Shown piece by piece: positions 35,265-44,061 of a DNA stretch of 64,000 bases. The DNA comes from Thermomicrobium sp. 4228-Ro (GTDB taxonomy: Bacteria; Chloroflexota; Chloroflexia; Thermomicrobiales; Thermomicrobiaceae): positions 682,001-746,000 of the forward strand of contig NZ_JAPFQM010000001.1 of NCBI RefSeq assembly GCF_026241205.1, given 5' to 3'. The translations under genes were made by a program, and so were the position numbers. Under the pieces are notes generated by a model. It was not told the DNA's origin. It searched no databases and saw only the letters and a list, made by a program, of their open reading frames with translations. The first letter of the stretch is position 1, and each line of letters opens with the position of its first letter.

Positions 35265-36479
35265 CTACAGCTCATCTTCACCAGTATTCTGTCCAGGATC
35301 GCTCGTGAACCACTGCTGTGGCACCGCTCCCGCGAGCGGAAGCACTGCTGCAGGCGCGAAGAACGAGAAGGCGAACCGCACTGTCTCGCCGGGCCGCAGG
35401 CCAGGGATCGGCATCAGTCGAGTGAGGAGTGGCTTCTTCAGGCGTGTCGCCAGTGTGGCCACATCCAGAACCAGACCGCTTAGCTGTGCTGCGGTGGTCT
35501 CACCGGGGAGCGGGATGACGTCCAGACCGACTCCGCAGACGGCCGAGGCGACCAGCAGCGTCGACAATTGGAGCTGACCAGCTTGTGCGAGGGCACCGAG
35601 TCTGGCGTCCTCGAGGACGGGGAGCATCAGGCCGCAGAAGCCGGTGCGCCGCACCGGTAGTCTCTGCAACACACTGGTGATCGACGCAGCGACAGCCAGT
35701 GTCCCCGGCGCACCGAATGGCTGGAGACCGAGGCGCTCGAAAGCAGCCGCAACGCTCCGCGTCTCGTCCGGGTACGGGGCGAGCGAACAGTCGATGCCGA
35801 GCGCCCGCGCGCCGAGCCGGACAGCCAACCCTTCGACAGCTGTCCAGAGTCGCTCGGCCACCTGACTCAGGCGCTCTTCCAGACGCCGTTCGGCCTCGCC
35901 GAGCGACCGTGCGCCGGTCACCGCCGCGAGCGCATCGTCCGCCACTTCCCACGCCACGGAAAGCGCGACCTCCCCGCCATCGTGATAGGCCGCTGGGAAG
36001 AACGGGATACCAGGCGGACACAGCGCCAGAGCGGCGAACCGGAGGTTCCCGAACCCTCCCGCGGTCCGCCTCGCCAGCTCGCTGATGACCCTCCCAGCAG
36101 CCTCGACCGCTGGTAGTGCGACCCGACCATCGTCCGTCGTGGTCGAGATGGCGGCGAACAGCGTCTCGTTCTCGACCAGTGCCGGCACGATATGGGACAT
36201 CCATGCGTGCTGTTCCGGGCCAGCTGGCCCCATCGAGACGTAGTCGAAGCCAGCCGTCTCGGCGACCGCACAGAGCGCTCGCGCGAAGACCGTGACCTCC
36301 TCCGGTGCGACGACGTTCGGGAAGGGCTGCGTGGCGAGACGGAGCGTTTGCAGCTCGATCCCTGCCTCGGCGAAGTACGCCCGTACTCGCTGCGGTAGCC
36401 TGGCGATCTCCGCTCCGTTCGCGATCCTGCCGCCCTGCCACTCGACCGTCCAACCGATCGTGACTGCTCGTACTCGCAT
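35265..36479 (-). CDS. DUF711 (PFL-like) family protein
   Basis: The 404-residue product matches the DUF711 family, with relatives that are structurally like glycyl-radical enzymes but lack their chemistry. Blocks visible are GFDYVSMGPAG, GGFGNLRFAALALCPPGIPFFPAAYHDGG, and GIDCSLAPYPDETRSVAAAFERLG. An MxxVxxxxxI start follows ATG 36479 with GGAGGAG upstream. Function in the family is unknown. The gene is divergent from a PIG-L deacetylase gene. TATAAG on the minus strand near 36521 could be its -10 box. Confidence 0.8.
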   Translation of the reverse strand: MRVRAVTIGWTVEWQGGRIANGAEIARLPQRVRAYFAEAGIELQTLRLATQPFPNVVAPEEVTVFARALCAVAETAGFDYVSMGPAGPEQHAWMSHIVPALVENETLFAAISTTTDDGRVALPAVEAAGRVISELARRTAGGFGNLRFAALALCPPGIPFFPAAYHDGGEVALSVAWEVADDALAAVTGARSLGEAERRLEERLSQVAERLWTAVEGLAVRLGARALGIDCSLAPYPDETRSVAAAFERLGLQPFGAPGTLAVAASITSVLQRLPVRRTGFCGLMLPVLEDARLGALAQAGQLQLSTLLVASAVCGVGLDVIPLPGETTAAQLSGLVLDVATLATRLKKPLLTRLMPIPGLRPGETVRFAFSFFAPAAVLPLAGAVPQQWFTSDPGQNTGEDEL

Positions 36480-36713
36480 GACGCACGTCTCCTCCGCCCA
36501 CCACCTGGCCGCCCGCCTTATACTGCCACGGGGTGCGGACTGACCGAAGCCGATGTCATGCTCCGGCCTCGGAGCAGCGCGTCCCCGGATCCGTTCCGGC
36601 TCGCGACGGGACAGACGGCGGTCCTGCGAGCGAAGAATCGTCGCGGTATTGCACACCGTCACTCACCATCGCGAGCCTGGCACAGCGAACCGGATCGATC
36701 GGGAGTCAACACG

Positions 36714-37439
36714 ATGGAGAAGCTGTCCGTCCGACACATCGGCGAGCCACCGCTGGCCGAGCGCGTCCTGATCGTCGGCGCGCATCCGGACGACCCGGAG
36801 TTCTTCTGCGCCGGGACGGTCGCCCGCTGGGTCGCCGCTGGGACGACCGTACACTACGTGGTCGTTACCTCCGGCGACAAGGGACAACCAGAACACTGGA
36901 ACCCGTCACGGTCGTTCGTCGAAGTCCGCGAGGCCGAGCAACTGGCCGCCGCGCAGCTCCTGGGCGTTCAAGGGATCACCTTCCTGCGGCTCCCTGACGG
37001 GGAAGTCTTCGACACGCTCGCCCTGCGTGCCCAGCTGACTGCTGAGATCCGACGCTTCCGCCCCGATATCGTGCTCACGCACGATCCCCTCACGAGGCTC
37101 TACCGCCAGCATCCCGATCACCGCGCCGTCGGCGCAGCCACTCTGGCGGCCGCCTTTCCAGCCAGCCGCTTGGCAACCTTTTTCCCCGAGCAACTGGCAG
37201 CTGGCTTACACCCGCACGTTGTCCGCGTCGCGCTGCTCTTCGGGAGCGACCGTCCCGACACCTTCGTCGACATCGCACCCGTGCTCGAGCGAAAGCTCGC
37301 AGCGCTCCGCTGTCATACCAGCCAAGCGAGCGCCTTCCCCGGCGGCACGGAGAACCGCGTCCGTAGTCGTGCTCGCGAGGCTGGTGCGCCAGTCGGGCTC
37401 GAGTACGCCGAGGCGTTCCTCTGGGTCGACCTGGAGTGA
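36714..37439 (+). CDS. PIG-L (LmbE-like) deacetylase
   Basis: This 241-residue zinc deacetylase shows the AHPDDPEFFCAGT metal motif (about 23-35), with His-x-Asp-Asp, and a later HPDHRAVG near 132-139. PIG-L/LmbE enzymes deacetylate N-acetylglucosamine derivatives, such as those in mycothiol, bacillithiol and GPI synthesis. The substrate is undetermined; a low-molecular-weight thiol role is attractive beside the redox genes but unsupported. ATG 36714 is chosen because the upstream frame is not conserved-looking. Confidence 0.9.
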   Translation: MEKLSVRHIGEPPLAERVLIVGAHPDDPEFFCAGTVARWVAAGTTVHYVVVTSGDKGQPEHWNPSRSFVEVREAEQLAAAQLLGVQGITFLRLPDGEVFDTLALRAQLTAEIRRFRPDIVLTHDPLTRLYRQHPDHRAVGAATLAAAFPASRLATFFPEQLAAGLHPHVVRVALLFGSDRPDTFVDIAPVLERKLAALRCHTSQASAFPGGTENRVRSRAREAGAPVGLEYAEAFLWVDLE

Positions 37440-37442
37440 CGC

Positions 37443-38351
37443 TCAGGCCGTGGCCAACCGGCGCTGGACCTCCGGCACCACCACTTCGACGAAATGCTGG
37501 GCTTGCGCGACGTAGTCTCCAGCGACCGGCCAGAAAACAAAAGTGTCCATCCCGAGTTCGACGAAGCGGACGATCGCCTCGACCCACGCCTCCGCGGGGC
37601 CACCGAGGAATCCCGGGCGGTGCACGCGCAGAGGGCGAGCCCCCGGGTAGTCCAGGACGCCGAGGAGATTGTAGAGGCGGCGGATACTCCCCGGATCGCG
37701 TCCGGCAGCATGAGCCCCCTCGTCGACCAGCCGATTGACCTCCGGCAAGCGCTCCGGAGGAACGTAGGGCGTCGAGATCGTCAGCCCATCGGCGAGCAGA
37801 CCGGTCAACCGGAGCGCGCGAGGCCGGATCGCACCGACCCAGAGCGGAATCGGTCGAACCGGCTTCGGGCCGAATTCGAGACCTTCGATACGAAAAACGC
37901 GACCCTCGTACGTCACCGGCTCACTTGTTTTTGCCTTCTCCCACAGGAGCCGGCAGAGCCGGAGCGCGTCTTCGAGTGCGGCCAGCGCTTCCGGCGGTGT
38001 CCAGCGTGGACCGCCCATCGCTGCAATCCCGTCCCAGAAAGCGCCTGCACCGAGACCGAGTTCTACGCGGCCACCGGTCAGGCGGTCGAGCGTCGCTGCA
38101 GCCTTGGCGAGCATCGCTGGTGCACGTAAGGCGAGCGTCGCCACGTTGGTGAGCACGTGCACCCGCTCGGTCCTGAGCGCGATCGCGGTCAGCAACGTCC
38201 AGGTGTCACCGAAGCGGGGATTGTAGGCGTGATCCTGCATGGCGACGAGCGCAAGCCCAGCACGGTCAGCGAGCGTCGCCAGGCCTATCACTTCTTCCGG
38301 GCGATCGACCACCGGATCGATGTTGAGCCCGAACCGTATCGTGCGCTGCAT
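37443..38351 (-). CDS. LLM-class (F420/FMN) oxidoreductase, intact paralogue
   Basis: The 302-residue luciferase-like protein reads RFGLNIDPVV at the N terminus, VAMQDHAYNPRFGDTWTLL, HVLTNVATLALRAPAMLAK, LDRLTGGRVELGLGAGAFW and PIPLWVGAIRPRALRLTG. The ATG at 38351 follows GGAGGCGAGGG. A decayed relative of the same family lies immediately upstream (38430-38826). The cofactor is probably F420 but FMN is possible. The substrate is unknown. Confidence 0.87.
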   Translation of the reverse strand: MQRTIRFGLNIDPVVDRPEEVIGLATLADRAGLALVAMQDHAYNPRFGDTWTLLTAIALRTERVHVLTNVATLALRAPAMLAKAAATLDRLTGGRVELGLGAGAFWDGIAAMGGPRWTPPEALAALEDALRLCRLLWEKAKTSEPVTYEGRVFRIEGLEFGPKPVRPIPLWVGAIRPRALRLTGLLADGLTISTPYVPPERLPEVNRLVDEGAHAAGRDPGSIRRLYNLLGVLDYPGARPLRVHRPGFLGGPAEAWVEAIVRFVELGMDTFVFWPVAGDYVAQAQHFVEVVVPEVQRRLATA

Positions 38352-38429
38352 GATTCCCTCGCCTCCGCCACGCCACCTGGTACGAACCAGTGGCTTGTCG
38401 GTCAACTGGAGCAGGTACGCAGTCGGAAG

Positions 38430-38826
38430 TCACGGCCAGGCCGCGGTGGAACAGGTCGTCGCGATCGACACCTCGCACGACGCCACCGAGACGCTCGATG
38501 ACCGTGCTGGGAGCCGCTTCCTGAATGCACCCAATTCGACACGACCACCGCCCAGCCGGTCGAGGCTAGTGACCGAGCGAGCGCATACAGCCAGGTGTCG
38601 CAGCGGGAGAACCGCCACGTCGGGAGCGAGCCACCTGGGCTTCGCCCGAGCAGCGACAGGGAAGCGACCGGGTTCGGAGGAAACTCGGCTGGTACGGGTG
38701 ATCCTGACCAGTGACGAGATCCAGGCCGAGCGTGTCGCACCACTCGACGAGCTTGACCACGCGCTCCGGATCAGCCGCGGAAGGGGTCAGAAAGACACCG
38801 AAAAGCAGCGAATGCTCGTAATCCAT
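38430..38826 (-). pseudogene. LLM-class oxidoreductase pseudogene
   Basis: From ATG 38826 the frame reads a normal LLM N terminus (LLFGVFLTPSAADPERV, then LVTGQDHPYQPSFL). It then shifts: the homologous continuation LAPDVAVLPLRHLAV and VTSLDRLGGGRVELGAF appears in another frame near 38645-38520. After that, similarity is lost, so the C-terminal half is missing. It resembles the intact neighbour at 37443-38351, in the same order and direction, so it is probably a decayed tandem paralogue. Confidence 0.8.
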
Positions 38827-38894
38827 CGCCCCCGTTACTCTCAACCTGTCGAATCGCTCCGAGGGACAGGGCGGGCGAACTGTGCGAGTCTCGC

Positions 38895-39557
38895 TCAACG
38901 CTCGTCTCGCCCTGCTCGCGCTCGTTGCTCGATGACGGCACGCAGCCAGGCACGGTACTGCTCTTCCGTCCGCGCCCCGCTCAAGGCAGACGTCCCATCG
39001 GCGACCAGGGTCGGTACTGCTGCAACACCGAGTCGGCGTGCCCGCTCGAGGTCAGCCTGAACGGCAGCCAGGACTTCCCCGCTACGGTAGGCCTTTTCCC
39101 AGAGCGAGACATCCAGCCCCACCGCAGCAGCACAGTCAGCCAGGACAGCATCATCGGCGATATTGCGGCACTCGACGAGATGCGCGTACTGGATGCGGTC
39201 GAAGAGATCCCAGTGCGCCTGTTGGCCGCCGATCGACTCTGCCGCTTTGCAGGCGCGGAGCCCTGGCATCGAATACGGATAGTCGAATGGCCGTGCCGCC
39301 ATGAGGTCGGGCCGGAACCGCGGCACGTCGTCGTACCGGTTGGCCAAACGCCAGTGCTCGAGAATCTCAGCTTTCCCGCGTTCCTTGGAACCGAAGATCA
39401 CCGCAATGGCCTCGGGTGTCGGCGCGAGCGCGAAACAGCGGTGCACTAGGTGAACTTCCGGGAACTCGGTGAGAACCCGGCGCAGCCGTGGCGACGCCAC
39501 GGCACACCAGGCTCACAACACATCGTGAAAGAATTCGAGGGTGACCATACTCGTCAT
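38895..39557 (-). CDS. DsbA/FrnE-like oxidoreductase, candidate selenoprotein (UxxC)
   Basis: The ATG at 39557 overlaps the doxX stop as ATGA. The frame codes 220 residues if the TGA at 39515-39513 (codon 15) is read through. The N terminus then reads TLEFFHDVL-TGA-AWC-AVASPRLRRVL, in which TGA replaces the first Cys of the DsbA/FrnE CxxC motif. The following 205 codons are intact, with the helical insertion (LAPTPEAIAVIFG ... AAESIGGQ), the cis-Pro segment GVAAVPTLVADG, and a stop just before the LLM pseudogene. UxxC replaces CxxC in several known bacterial selenoprotein families. Without Sec readthrough only a 14-residue peptide, or an N-terminally truncated protein from GTG 39500, would be made. 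Confidence 0.72.
39485..39515 (-). promoter_or_regulatory. Candidate bacterial SECIS after the dsbA-like TGA
   Basis: The mRNA 3' of TGA forms a perfect 8-bp stem (39503-39496 with 39492-39485) with the loop GUC, or a 7-bp stem with loop CGUCG. The loop begins 16-17 nt after TGA and contains GU. Known bacterial SECIS elements place a GU-bearing loop about 16-37 nt after UGA, so spacing and loop both fit. Confidence 0.6.
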
Positions 39558-39940
39558 CCAAGGCTGAGTGGCCACGGCGTCGGTACGCCCAGCAGCGCCA
39601 GTGCTGCTCCGGCCAGTGCGAGATTCTTCAGGAAGTGCGCCATCTGGTTCGCCCGAGCCATCGGATCGGTCTCAACCCAGAAGTTGTGTATCCAAAATGC
39701 GACTGGCACGAGGAACACGATCAACAGGATATTGCCGATCACCGGCTGATACCCTGTCGCGACACTGGCCCCGCCGAGCAGCAACATGATCCCGGTCACG
39801 ATGACTGCTGCCTGGGGCGCTGGAACCCTCTTTGACGCCGCGTACATGCTCATCCCGCGGACGTTCATCAAGTGGTTGATGCCGTTGAAGACGAAGAAGA
39901 GCCCGAACACGATCCGTCCCAGCAGGAATGCCCATTCCAT
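39554..39940 (-). CDS. DoxX family membrane protein
   Basis: The 128-residue product has four membrane segments, with RIVFGLFFVFNGINHL at the N terminus and the family motif KRVPAPQAAVIVTGIMLLLGG. DoxX proteins are quinone-linked membrane redox subunits or partners; some pair with thiol oxidoreductases. The ATG at 39940 follows a GGAGG-rich site, and its stop overlaps the DsbA-like ATG (ATGA). The coupling suggests that DoxX carries electrons between the quinone pool and the UxxC oxidoreductase, which is inference. Confidence 0.85.
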   Translation of the reverse strand: MEWAFLLGRIVFGLFFVFNGINHLMNVRGMSMYAASKRVPAPQAAVIVTGIMLLLGGASVATGYQPVIGNILLIVFLVPVAFWIHNFWVETDPMARANQMAHFLKNLALAGAALALLGVPTPWPLSLG

Positions 39941-39985
39941 CGCTACCCCCCTCCTCTCCGAACCCCCCCCTTTGGAGAACGAGAA

Positions 39986-40013
39986 GGCGGGGCAGGAGCG
40001 CTCCTGCCCCGCC
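39986..40013 (-). terminator. Terminator-like perfect palindrome downstream of yceI
   Basis: A 28-bp perfect inverted repeat (two 14-base arms, no spacer) follows the yceI stop on the minus strand. A weak pyrimidine tract (TTCTCGTTCT) follows it. It probably terminates yceI, or allows partial readthrough into doxX, whose start is about 45 bp further on. Confidence 0.7.
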
Positions 40014-40019
40014 GGGCTG

Positions 40020-40583
40020 TCAGGCCGCGTCCTTGCGCACCAGCTCCACCTCGATAAAGACATCGACTGTATCACCGACCAACCAGCCACCCGCTTCCAG
40101 CGCGACATTCCAGCTCGCGCCGAAGTCGTGCCGGTTGATCTTCGTGCGCGCCTCGAAGCCAGCTCGCACGCCACCCCACGGATCCTTGGCGACCCCGTGG
40201 AACTCCGCATCGAGTGCGACCTCCTTGGTGACACCGCGGATGGTGAGATCACCGATCACGCGGTACCGATTGCCACCTAGCGGCTCGATGCGCTTACTGA
40301 CGAACGTGATCGTCGGGTAGTGCTCGACATCGAGGAAGTCTGCCGAACGGAGATGCGCGTCCCGCCGCTCCTCGCGCGTATCGATGCTGGCAGCATCGAT
40401 CGTCACTTCTACCTTGCCGTTCTCCGGGTGCGCCGGATCGAACTCCACCCAGCCGGAAAAGTTCTTGAACTGGCCACGCACGGTGGTCACCATGAGGTGC
40501 CGAACGGCAAAGGTGATCTGGCTATGCGCCGGATCGATCTCCCACCGCGCCAGTCCCGTCAGCTCCGGTGCGATCGTGGTCAC
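40020..40583 (-). CDS. yceI: YceI family lipid-binding protein
   Basis: The 187-residue product is a YceI lipocalin-like barrel: WEIDPAHSQITFAVRHLMVTTVRG, VEVTIDAASIDTREERRDAHLRSADFLDVEHYPTITF, GDLTIRGVTKEV, and a C-terminal VGDTVDVFIEVELV. Family members bind isoprenoid-type lipids such as polyprenyl quinones. There is no signal peptide, so it is cytosolic. GTG 40583 follows AAGGAGG. The promoter at 40664-40636 and the HxlR gene divergent to it imply redox or quinone-responsive control. Confidence 0.92.
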   Translation of the reverse strand: MTTIAPELTGLARWEIDPAHSQITFAVRHLMVTTVRGQFKNFSGWVEFDPAHPENGKVEVTIDAASIDTREERRDAHLRSADFLDVEHYPTITFVSKRIEPLGGNRYRVIGDLTIRGVTKEVALDAEFHGVAKDPWGGVRAGFEARTKINRHDFGASWNVALEAGGWLVGDTVDVFIEVELVRKDAA

Positions 40584-40619
40584 AGCTGCCTCCTTCCTGA
40601 GCGTCTCTGCTACGTCATC

Positions 40620-40632
40620 CGTAGCAACTACG
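40620..40632. promoter_or_regulatory. Operator-like inverted repeat near the yceI transcription start
   Basis: CGTAGCAACTACG is a perfect 5-3-5 inverted repeat, lying a few bases downstream of the yceI -10 box. HxlR-type regulators such as YodB and HypR bind short palindromes of this size. It is the most likely binding site for the divergent HxlR protein. A further TACG-containing half-site follows at 40611. Confidence 0.5.
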
Positions 40633-40635
40633 AGT

Positions 40636-40664
40636 ATCATAGTTTTAGCGGCTACCGTTGTCAA
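40636..40664 (-). promoter_or_regulatory. Strong sigma-70 promoter of yceI
   Basis: TTGACA (40664-40659) and TATGAT (40641-40636) with exactly 17 bases between them, on the minus strand. This is the best promoter match in the window. It reads into yceI, whose GTG is about 50 bp downstream. Confidence 0.8.
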
Positions 40665-40736
40665 GGAGTCGTTCCGATCTCGGATCGAAGCACAGCTCTG
40701 CCGCCCGCGGTACAATGGCAGTGGCGAGGATGGACG

Positions 40737-41111
40737 ATGCGGCGCGATGCACACCACGAAGCGAGTTGTCCGATCGCACGTGCAGCGCGGCTCCTCGGCG
40801 ACCACTGGGTGCTGTTGATCCTGCGCGAACTCGGCCAGGGGAACCGGCGGTTCCACGAGTTGCTCGACGGCACCGGTATCAGTCCAGCCGTGCTGTCCCA
40901 GCGGTTACGGTATCTGGAAGCCGAGGGCTTGATTTCCCGGCATGCCTACGCGCAGGTTCCGCCGCGCGTGGAATACGAGCTCACCGACAAGGGGCGCGCC
41001 GCGCTGCCGCTCATCGAGCAGTTGCGCGAGTACGGCGAGCGTTGGCTGACCCCCGAGCCACCGGAGGGCCCGGAGGTACCATCCGACGAGCCGACCGTCG
41101 CCGAAGTGTGA
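40737..41111 (+). CDS. HxlR family transcriptional regulator
   Basis: The 124-residue product carries a winged helix of the HxlR type: SCPIARAARLLGDHWVLLILREL at the N terminus, FHELLDGTGISPAVLSQRLRYLEAEGLI and VEYELTDKGRAALPLI. The cysteine in SCPIA (Cys11) matches the redox-sensing N-terminal Cys of YodB, CatR and HypR, which respond to quinones and disulfide stress. It is divergent from yceI, so control of yceI is likely. TACAAT at 40711-40716 may be its own -10 box. Confidence 0.9.
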   Translation: MRRDAHHEASCPIARAARLLGDHWVLLILRELGQGNRRFHELLDGTGISPAVLSQRLRYLEAEGLISRHAYAQVPPRVEYELTDKGRAALPLIEQLREYGERWLTPEPPEGPEVPSDEPTVAEV

Positions 41112-41129
41112 GGACGATCGGAAACAGCC

Positions 41130-42059
41130 GTGCGCATCGTCTCCCTGCTGCCGAGTCTGACCGAAATCTGCTGGGCACTCGGACTCGCCGACGAGCTCGT
41201 CGCCGTCACGCACGAGTGCGATTATCCCCCGGCTGTGCGCGCCAAGCCACGGATCACCCGGAGTCTCCTCCCTCCTGGACTGAGTCACGCCGAAATCGAC
41301 GCAGCAGTGCGTCAGCGCGTCGCAGCCGGGCTCCCGCTCTACGAGCTGGATACCGAGCAGCTCGCTGCACTCGCCCCGGACTTGATCCTGACGCAGGCGC
41401 TGTGTCCAGTCTGCGCTGTTTCTGTCGATGATGTGTGCCGGCTCGCCGCCGCTCTACCCCGACCACCACAGGTTATCTCGGTCGAACCGACGACGCTCGA
41501 GGAGATCTTCGACTCGATCGAGACCGTCGGCGCTGCGACCGGACGCCAGGAGACAGCTCGAGCGGTCGTGACCGCCTTGCGCCGGCGACTCGTCTGGATC
41601 CAGCACCGCCTGGTTGGGACGCCTAGCCGGCCCCGAGTCGTCTGCCTCGAGTGGCTCGCCCCACCGATCGTCGCTGGCCACTGGGTACCCGAGATGGTCG
41701 AAATCGCCGGCGGTCACGACGTCTTAGCGATCGCGGGGAAACCCTCCTTCACCGTGACCTGGGAACAGGTCGCAGCTGTCGCTCCCGACGTGCTCGTGCT
41801 GATGCCCTGCGGATACGACCTCGCTAGCACGCAGGAACTGGGCCGACAGCTCCTCGCCGATCCCGCACTCCGTGATATCCCGGCCGTGTCGCACGGGGCA
41901 GTCTGGGCAGTCGACGCGTCGAGTTACTTCAGTCGTCCCGGACCGCGCGTGGTCGGCGGAGTCGAGATCCTCGCCGCACTGCTCCATCCGGAGCGCTGTT
42001 CGACCGACATGCAGGATCGAGCCGCACCGGTCCGACCGCTGTCTTCGCTCGTCTCCTGA
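41130..42059 (+). CDS. Cobalamin-binding protein (BtuF-like), cytosolic
   Basis: The 309-residue product has a periplasmic-binding-protein fold of the BtuF/FecB class III type: VSLLPSLTEICWALGLADELVAVTHECDYP, LAPDLILTQALCPVCAVS, and WEQVAAVAPDVLVLMPCGYD. It has no signal peptide or lipobox from GTG 41130, so it stays in the cytosol. Similar cytosolic BtuF-like proteins occur widely in Chloroflexota beside cobalamin genes. The stop overlaps the ECF S component start, so they are coupled. Cobalamin is the best ligand guess. Confidence 0.8.
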   Translation: MRIVSLLPSLTEICWALGLADELVAVTHECDYPPAVRAKPRITRSLLPPGLSHAEIDAAVRQRVAAGLPLYELDTEQLAALAPDLILTQALCPVCAVSVDDVCRLAAALPRPPQVISVEPTTLEEIFDSIETVGAATGRQETARAVVTALRRRLVWIQHRLVGTPSRPRVVCLEWLAPPIVAGHWVPEMVEIAGGHDVLAIAGKPSFTVTWEQVAAVAPDVLVLMPCGYDLASTQELGRQLLADPALRDIPAVSHGAVWAVDASSYFSRPGPRVVGGVEILAALLHPERCSTDMQDRAAPVRPLSSLVS

Positions 42060-42874
42060 TGGGTCAGCTCGCTCGTCTCACCGGTCCGTTCAGTCTGATC
42101 CTGGCCTCGCTCGGCGGGGTCGCCGCGTTCGTCTATCCCTTTCTCCTCGCTGCCATCGGTATCGAACCAGCGCGAGGCAGCAGCCTCGCTGTACCGCTCC
42201 TCTTCGCCTCGCTCGCTCTGCTCTCGGTCGCGGTCCTCTTGAGCGAGTTCGTCCAGCCTGAGCGTGCCAGCACGGATGTCGCGCGTTCTGTCGCGCTCCT
42301 CGCTGTCCTCGTGGCGATCGATGCGGCACTCCGCTTCCTCCCGAGCCTGATCGGTGCGAGCCCGATCTTTCTGCTGATCATCCTCAGCGGCTACGTGTTC
42401 GGTGCACGCTTCGGCTTCGCGATGGGTGCCTTGACCCTGCTCCTCTCCGCCATCCTGACCGGTGGCATCGGCCCGTGGCTTCCCTATCAGATGCTCTGCG
42501 CGGGCTGGATCGGGCAGTCGGCCGGATGGTTACCGAAGCTCCAGGGTTGGCAGCGTCGTCTCCTGCTCGCTGGGTTCGGCGCAGCCTGGGGCTTCCTCTT
42601 CGGTGCGCTCATGAATCTCTGGTTCTGGCCGTTCGCCGCTCCAGGCGTGACCGACAGCGGAGGACTGTACTGGGTCCCGGGCATGTCGCTCGCCGAAACC
42701 GTCCGCGCCTATGCCCGTTTCTATATCGCGACCTCGCTCCTGTTCGACGGCACGCGTGCCCTCGGGAACGCGCTGCTCGTCCTTCTGCTCAGCGATCCCC
42801 TGGTCACCATTCTCGAACGCTGGCGCGAGCGCCTCCGCTGGCACCCATGGAGAGAACTCGATGACCGCGCCTAG
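42059..42874 (+). CDS. ECF transporter S component (possible cobalamin type)
   Basis: The 271-residue product has about seven hydrophobic segments. It shows the S-component style GYVFGARFGFAMGALTLLLSAILTGGIGPWLPYQML and the conserved GWIGQSAGWLP with FGALMNLWFWP. The membrane part without its own ATPase is the substrate-binding subunit of an energy-coupling factor importer. Shared EcfA and EcfT would be encoded elsewhere. Coupling to a BtuF-like protein suggests a CbrT-like vitamin B12 importer; I infer this from context only. Confidence 0.8.
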   Translation: MGQLARLTGPFSLILASLGGVAAFVYPFLLAAIGIEPARGSSLAVPLLFASLALLSVAVLLSEFVQPERASTDVARSVALLAVLVAIDAALRFLPSLIGASPIFLLIILSGYVFGARFGFAMGALTLLLSAILTGGIGPWLPYQMLCAGWIGQSAGWLPKLQGWQRRLLLAGFGAAWGFLFGALMNLWFWPFAAPGVTDSGGLYWVPGMSLAETVRAYARFYIATSLLFDGTRALGNALLVLLLSDPLVTILERWRERLRWHPWRELDDRA

Positions 42875-44061
42875 ATCGCGCCGGCCTCGCGCATGGCTGC
42901 GATCTGGTCCGCCGTATAACCCAGCTCGCCCAGCACTTCTTCGGTATGCTCGCCGAGCAGCGGTGGGTGGCGGCGGATCATCGCCGGCGTTCTCGAGAAG
43001 CGCCACGGGAAGCCGGTCTGATCGACCGCACCGAGCGTCGGATGCGGTACGCGCTGATGCAGTTCCAAATGCTGCACCTGCGGGTCGGCGAAGACTTCCG
43101 GAACGGTGTAGATCGGGCCACAGGGCACCTGAGCTGCGTCGAGTCGCTGGACGATCTCGGCAGTCGTCAGCGTCCGCGTCACCGCCTCGATACGCTCGAC
43201 CAGTTCCGGCAGGTTCGTGATCCGCCCGGCATTGTCGGCGAAACGCGGATCCGCGAGAAGGTCTTCCAGCCCGAGCGCCCGGCACATCCGAGCGAAAATG
43301 GCGTTGTTCCCTGCAGCGATATTCACATGCCCGTCCGCGCTCCGGAACGTCTGATACGGGGCGACGATCGGGTGCGCATTACCAGTCCGCTTCGGCGTCT
43401 CACCGGTCGCGAAGTAGATCCCAGCCTGGTAGGTGAGCAATGCCACCTGGCCACCCAGCATCGAGGTATCGATGTACTGCCCCTCGCCCGTCTGCGCGCG
43501 ATGGTAGAGTGCCGCCACGATCGCCAGGGCTGCGAACATTCCCGCCCCGATGTCGGCGATCGGGACACCGAACCGGACCGGATCGCCGTCCGGGAAACCG
43601 GTCACGCTCATCAACCCCGACATGCCCTGGACGATCAAATCGTACGCGGTCCGGTCCCTACCGGGTCCAGTCTGACCGAAACCAGAAATCGAGCAATAGA
43701 TGATTTGTGGGCGACGACCGCGTACCGCGTCGTAACCGATACCCAATCGATCGACAGTACCCGGGCTGAAGTTCTCGACGACCACGTCAGCACGATCGAC
43801 CAGGCGCCAAAAGACCTCCTGTCCAGCTGGATGCTTGAGGTCGAGTGTGATACTCCGCTTGTTGCGGTTGACCGAAAGATAGTACGCGCTGACACCATGA
43901 ATGAAAGGCGGGCCCCACGACCGCGTGTCGTCCCCTGTCCCAGGACGCTCGATCTTGATCACGTCCGCGCCGAGATCACCCAGGAGCATGGTACAGTACG
44001 GTCCCGCCATCACGCGCGTCAGGTCGACAACGCGGACGCCGCTCAGCGGAAGTTGTGCCAT
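42871..44061 (-). CDS. CaiB/BaiF family CoA transferase (class III)
   Basis: The 396-residue product is a class III CoA transferase: GVRVVDLTRVMAGPYCTMLLGDLGADVIKIERPGTGDDTR, NRNKRSITLDLKHPAGQE, and GMSGLMSVTGFPDGDPVRFGVPIADIGAGM, whose Asp is the nucleophile (GVPIADIGAG). The C terminus has the usual VPCGPIYTVPEVFADPQVQ. Substrate acyl-CoA unknown. Its 3' end overlaps the ECF gene by 4 bases, convergently. A hairpin lies upstream, after the response regulator gene. Confidence 0.9.
   Translation of the reverse strand: MAQLPLSGVRVVDLTRVMAGPYCTMLLGDLGADVIKIERPGTGDDTRSWGPPFIHGVSAYYLSVNRNKRSITLDLKHPAGQEVFWRLVDRADVVVENFSPGTVDRLGIGYDAVRGRRPQIIYCSISGFGQTGPGRDRTAYDLIVQGMSGLMSVTGFPDGDPVRFGVPIADIGAGMFAALAIVAALYHRAQTGEGQYIDTSMLGGQVALLTYQAGIYFATGETPKRTGNAHPIVAPYQTFRSADGHVNIAAGNNAIFARMCRALGLEDLLADPRFADNAGRITNLPELVERIEAVTRTLTTAEIVQRLDAAQVPCGPIYTVPEVFADPQVQHLELHQRVPHPTLGAVDQTGFPWRFSRTPAMIRRHPPLLGEHTEEVLGELGYTADQIAAMREAGAI

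Follow-up and report, generated by a model that had tools for sequence, protein, structure and literature searches.

The window analysed here is a 64,000-nucleotide stretch of the genome of Thermomicrobium sp. 4228-Ro (G000, the reference in our codon comparisons). On its minus strand lies a DsbA/FrnE-like gene (38895..39557; Pfam DSBA, E 4e-18), hereafter dsbA, whose frame runs from ATG 39557-39555 to a stop at 38895 and is interrupted by a single TGA at 39513..39515. The TGA is codon 15 and reads in translation as EFFHDVL-U-AWC-AVASPRL, aligning with the first Cys of the DsbA-type CxxC. The predicted product is thus a 220-residue protein with selenocysteine (Sec) as residue 15, at the first position of UAWC. 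An alternative ATG at 39548 would give 217 residues (stop TGA at 38897-38895, minus strand); since orthologues begin at or near this position in the alignment, the first three residues are uncertain and the true start may be 39548 instead of 39557. The upstream ATG overlaps the stop (39556-39554) of doxX (39554..39940, minus strand; Pfam DoxX), which encodes a small membrane protein. Next come a yceI-like gene (40020..40640, minus strand; Pfam YceI, E 5e-56), whose ORF extends to 40856 with its first ATG at 40640, and a divergent hxlR-type regulator gene (40737..41111, plus strand; Pfam HxlR, E 2e-26), whose product has an N-terminal Cys. A first-pass annotation had read dsbA as a candidate UxxC selenoprotein; the frame with its one TGA, the overlap with doxX and the HDVL-U-AWC-AVASPRL context that it gave are all exact. 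Just downstream of dsbA, at 38566-38826, there is a broken LLM luciferase-like gene of which about 67 N-terminal residues match; the related genome G121 has an intact LLM frame at the corresponding place (L055 from 1790).

A mechanical ORF finder does not report this frame but a 201-residue one that starts at the GTG of codon 20 (39498..39500, minus strand) and lacks the active site. The first-pass annotation had anticipated this wrong start, and standard automatic annotation would probably cut the active site off the protein in the same way. The finder's output is what one would expect if translation truly began at the GTG, giving a DsbA-like protein without CxxC and leaving the upstream frame as a mere leader. 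However, the EFFHD-L segment 5′ of the TGA is common to all three TGA-containing genes that we found (below), with synonymous changes, and forms the first strand of the DsbA fold in our structure model (E5-11). W17 and C18 are likewise conserved, although they would be untranslated from the GTG. Between G000 and G121, the 11 codons 5′ of the TGA comprise 6 identical, 3 synonymous and 2 changed codons, and the 205 codons 3′ of it comprise 123 identical, 49 synonymous and 33 amino-acid-changing codons. Because coding conservation is seen on both sides of the TGA, a main product that starts 3′ of it is strongly disfavoured, and we consider a GTG start extremely improbable.

An intact orthologue is present in two other genomes of the family. 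The first, G121, is from the same genus (84% protein identity) and matches contig BEID01000053 of the metagenome bin HRbin27; the second, G031, is from another genus (67% protein identity) and matches the isolate Thermalbibacter longus CFH 74404. In both, this codon is likewise TGA and the gene immediately upstream is doxX. A sequencing or assembly error would need only one base to turn TGC or TGT into TGA, but the recurrence of this codon in independent assemblies, HRbin27 and T. longus, makes that explanation negligible.

Relatives of the gene can decay. Downstream of doxX, the genomes G035 (L105) and G049 (L101/L027) keep only degraded copies of dsbA, so the gene is dispensable, and the TGA could in principle be a recent nonsense mutation in a Cys-type dsbA. 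The decayed copies themselves argue otherwise, as these true pseudogenes show frameshifts or deletions and have TGC, not TGA, at the Sec codon. The shared TGA lies in intact genes of three genomes from two genera, and 3′ of it we found no other disruption and a visible signature of purifying selection in the codon counts above, which bears out the earlier statement that this part of the gene is intact. Together with the Sec machinery and the exceptional hairpin described below, these observations leave a recent pseudogene very unlikely.

Immediately 3′ of the TGA, 38 nt fold into a predicted bacterial SECIS hairpin (39475..39512, minus strand) with a 17-bp stem that starts at +1, a bulged U at 39484 and an apical GUC loop at +18 to +20 (39495-39493). 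The first-pass annotation had described a perfect hairpin with a GU-bearing loop starting 16–17 nt after the TGA. The perfect core and the loop are real, but the start is not there: the perfect 8-bp core begins at +10 and the stem as a whole at +1. Folding of the 42 nt 3′ of the TGA gave −30.9 kcal/mol. When 16,946 in-frame 42-mers were taken from the window's long frames, not one was as stable, and 2,000 synonymous recodings of the peptide all fell short of this energy; the SECIS-like hairpin is both real and highly unusual. Among the 166 stop-interrupted frames of similar size in the window, dsbA ranks first for stability of the 42 nt after the stop and is the only one with TGA-x-x-Cys; because of this coincidence, we regard the TGA and hairpin as beyond chance. 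By itself, the core motif GGCGTCGCC occurs in the window about as often as chance would have it (5 observed, 4 expected); it is the 17-bp stem as a whole, and not its core, that carries the evidence. An Rfam scan of 36000-43000 returned nothing relevant.

The hairpin of G121 carries four stem substitutions and keeps all 17 pairs (recoding p 0.009–0.02). None of 24 Cys orthologues showed a significant hairpin excess in the recoding test (lowest p 0.07). In G031, the 42-nt minimum free energy is an ordinary −13.7 (p about 0.2–0.3), and a weaker candidate stem-loop with GU in its loop lies further downstream. A stem-loop with G in a small apical loop is therefore clear in G000 and G121 and weak in G031, and conservation of the predicted SECIS is shown for the genus and does not demonstrably extend to G031.

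The host has the means to read such a codon. Targeted searches of the 3.07-Mb genome recovered all four components that the first-pass annotation had named for a check: selA (548 bits), selB (359 bits), selD (357 bits) and a tRNA-Sec (73 bits; anticodon TCA, ARAGORN). selD has one in-frame TGA of its own (motif GUAGK), and in two long formate dehydrogenase genes the TGA falls within the motif ARI-U-HSST; in each of the three (G000 C1:1677655-1678590, C6:255453-256202 and C1:1203136-1203945) a hairpin follows the in-frame TGA. The formate dehydrogenase hairpins have GGUCU loops with GU at +19, close to the GU at +18 in the dsbA loop. The selD hairpin has a GUG loop with GU at +34 and an unexceptional energy in the same 42 nt. 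By its gene content, the organism is a selenocysteine user. Among the 21 family genomes selA is present in 19, and the other two assemblies are incomplete.

A scan of genome contigs yielded 37 related loci, two of which are the TGA genes of G121 and G031. All 34 other readable loci, from other phyla, have a Cys codon at the site; they span Bacillota, Bacteroidota, Thermotogota, Coprothermobacterota, archaea and others. The UGA of dsbA thus aligns with Cys in homologues, neither Trp nor Arg, and sequence is conserved on both sides of it. A reading of the TGA as Trp (code 4 type) was rejected on the same ground. The three TGA genes group as a single clade (support 95/94) in a maximum-likelihood tree, and one change is enough to explain them; most simply, a Cys enzyme switched to Sec once within Thermomicrobiaceae.

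More distant DsbA homologues of the same class also have Cys wherever the alignment covers the site, except L048 in genome G021, which has a TGA of its own at the first Cys of CPWC (YY-U-PWCYIQAVRL). After this TGA comes an 8-bp hairpin whose GUG loop lies at +22. G021 has selA, and L048 is probably an independent DsbA-like selenoprotein, with L050 as its Cys version. Another TGA-containing homologue, G063 (L031), was set aside; its TGA is far from the active site and unrelated to a CxxC Sec. In L084, an archaeal Cys orthologue from a Ca. Pelearchaeum MAG, TAG replaces the Trp codon of CAWC at about position 2537, which may be a nonsense mutation, an assembly error or recoding. The motif reads CAWA in L075 and CAWS in L079, so that some members of the subgroup lack the second Cys of CAWC.

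We modelled the protein with Sec as Cys from a 30-row alignment (mean pLDDT 95.5). U-A-W-C lies where the first helix (H16-29) begins, as in the FrnE subfamily, and Pro182, which is invariant in the alignment, lies just before strand 183-186. The nearest solved structures are 2in3 (Z 26), YjbH (24), FrnE (22.8–22.9) and DsbM (22), with periplasmic DsbA proteins more distant (Z about 16). A profile of the protein, built with three distant homologues included, matches FrnE over its full length (E 1.6e-51). No hydrophobic leader or signal peptide is evident in the predicted protein. The C-terminal CxxxxC of many, though not all, FrnE members is missing, and as there is no Cys beyond residue 142 we call the protein FrnE-like and not drFrnE-type. 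The same fold is seen in GST-kappa and HCCA isomerases (Z 18–20), and the enzyme might contain Sec yet act mainly on small molecules, as a glutathione transferase kappa or in an isomerase-like manner, rather than on protein disulfides. This we consider unlikely: the closest structures are disulfide oxidoreductases and their relatives (Z 22–26), and the family keeps both Pro182 and the CxxC/UxxC pair, save for the missing second Cys of L075 and L079.

FrnE guards Deinococcus against cadmium and diamide, and a role as a disulfide reductase of the cytoplasm has been proposed for it (PMC8945050). In Pseudomonas, resistance to allicin is due in part to a FrnE-like dsbA (PMC7119367). HypR, YodB and CatR, regulators of the DUF24/HxlR type, sense such stress through N-terminal Cys residues (PMC6943732). 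On the basis of this literature, dsbA probably encodes a cytosolic enzyme of thiol-disulfide exchange that serves under redox stress.

Within the family, doxX occurs in 5 of 21 genomes, always accompanied by dsbA or its remnant: in three it is followed by the Sec gene, and in G035 and G049 by the decayed copy. The G035 remnant preserves 15 of the 17 hairpin stem pairs and in this resembles the SECIS remnants that have been described after Cys codons (PMC1794560), which suggests that G035 may formerly have had the Sec form. DoxX also adjoins the Cys orthologues L074, L078 and L093, and to judge from its linkage to DsbA in Bacteroidota and Ignavibacteriota, the DoxX-DsbA coupling may be older than the use of selenium. 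Only tentatively do we propose that the selenoprotein works as a unit with DoxX and YceI, with a membrane partner and under control of the HxlR redox regulator, and that this unit arose once in Thermomicrobiaceae.

The gene fits a known type convincingly, and the kind itself is not new. As the first-pass annotation had held, UxxC thiol oxidoreductases are an established group: prokaryotic selenoprotein catalogues have included DsbA-like UxxC proteins (PF01323, COG2761) ever since the Sargasso Sea set (PMC1088965, PMC1794560, PMC13188914). Like DsbA-like selenoprotein form 1, dsbA combines a DSBA Pfam domain with a predicted Sec as the first residue of UxxC at the catalytic site, a predicted SECIS directly downstream and widespread Cys homologues. 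The examples named in the catalogues come from marine metagenomes, Deltaproteobacteria and Clostridia and may fall inside or outside the EFFHD-L-[CU]-AWC subgroup. Deinococcus radiodurans FrnE (PDB 5cnw, 5coh; PMC8945050) shares the full-length fold, the lack of an evident signal peptide and the position of a CxWC-type motif; it differs in having Cys where dsbA is predicted to have Sec and in possessing the C-terminal CxxxxC (about 23% identity). Pseudomonas aeruginosa DsbM (PDB 5hfg/5hfi), a cytosolic disulfide reductase, is similar in fold (194 residues align, with Z 22 and rmsd 2.4), whereas its active site has Cys and identity is about 25%. The Rcas_1661 thioredoxin-like (seleno)lipoprotein family NF041057 (DsbG-like) also consists of thioredoxin-fold UxxC selenoproteins, but these are lipoproteins, and our protein scores 28.2 bits against a curated cut-off of 190; it likewise stays below the cut-off of every other curated NCBIfam selenoprotein model.

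Sec machinery, Cys homologues, a conserved TGA and the hairpin all support the original UxxC reading, and the internal TGA almost certainly directs insertion of selenocysteine. The explanation that we favour, with a probability of about 95%, is that dsbA encodes a UAWC selenoprotein, a cytosolic FrnE-like member of the DsbA superfamily that would carry out thiol-disulfide exchange within an hxlR / yceI-doxX-dsbA cluster. With the components present, a ribosome that reaches the UGA at 39515-39513 would insert Sec by means of SelB, tRNA-Sec and the downstream hairpin. From the family and the model, Sec15, at the N-terminal end of the first thioredoxin helix, would make the nucleophilic attack, and Cys18, opposite the Pro182 loop, would be the resolving residue. 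Relatives and gene context indicate that the protein most likely reduces or isomerizes damaged or mixed disulfides and that the cluster may respond to oxidative or electrophile stress.

In the open-licence literature, we found no report of this gene, of a FrnE-like Sec subgroup or of Thermomicrobiaceae examples. The gene adds a well-supported selenoprotein to a lineage for which we found none reported there. One gene that exists in Sec, Cys and decayed forms among relatives constitutes a clean natural experiment on why an enzyme acquires or gives up selenium, and the linkage to DoxX offers a testable partner for this poorly understood membrane protein. A heat-loving bacterium would thus have a selenium version of a common disulfide-handling enzyme.
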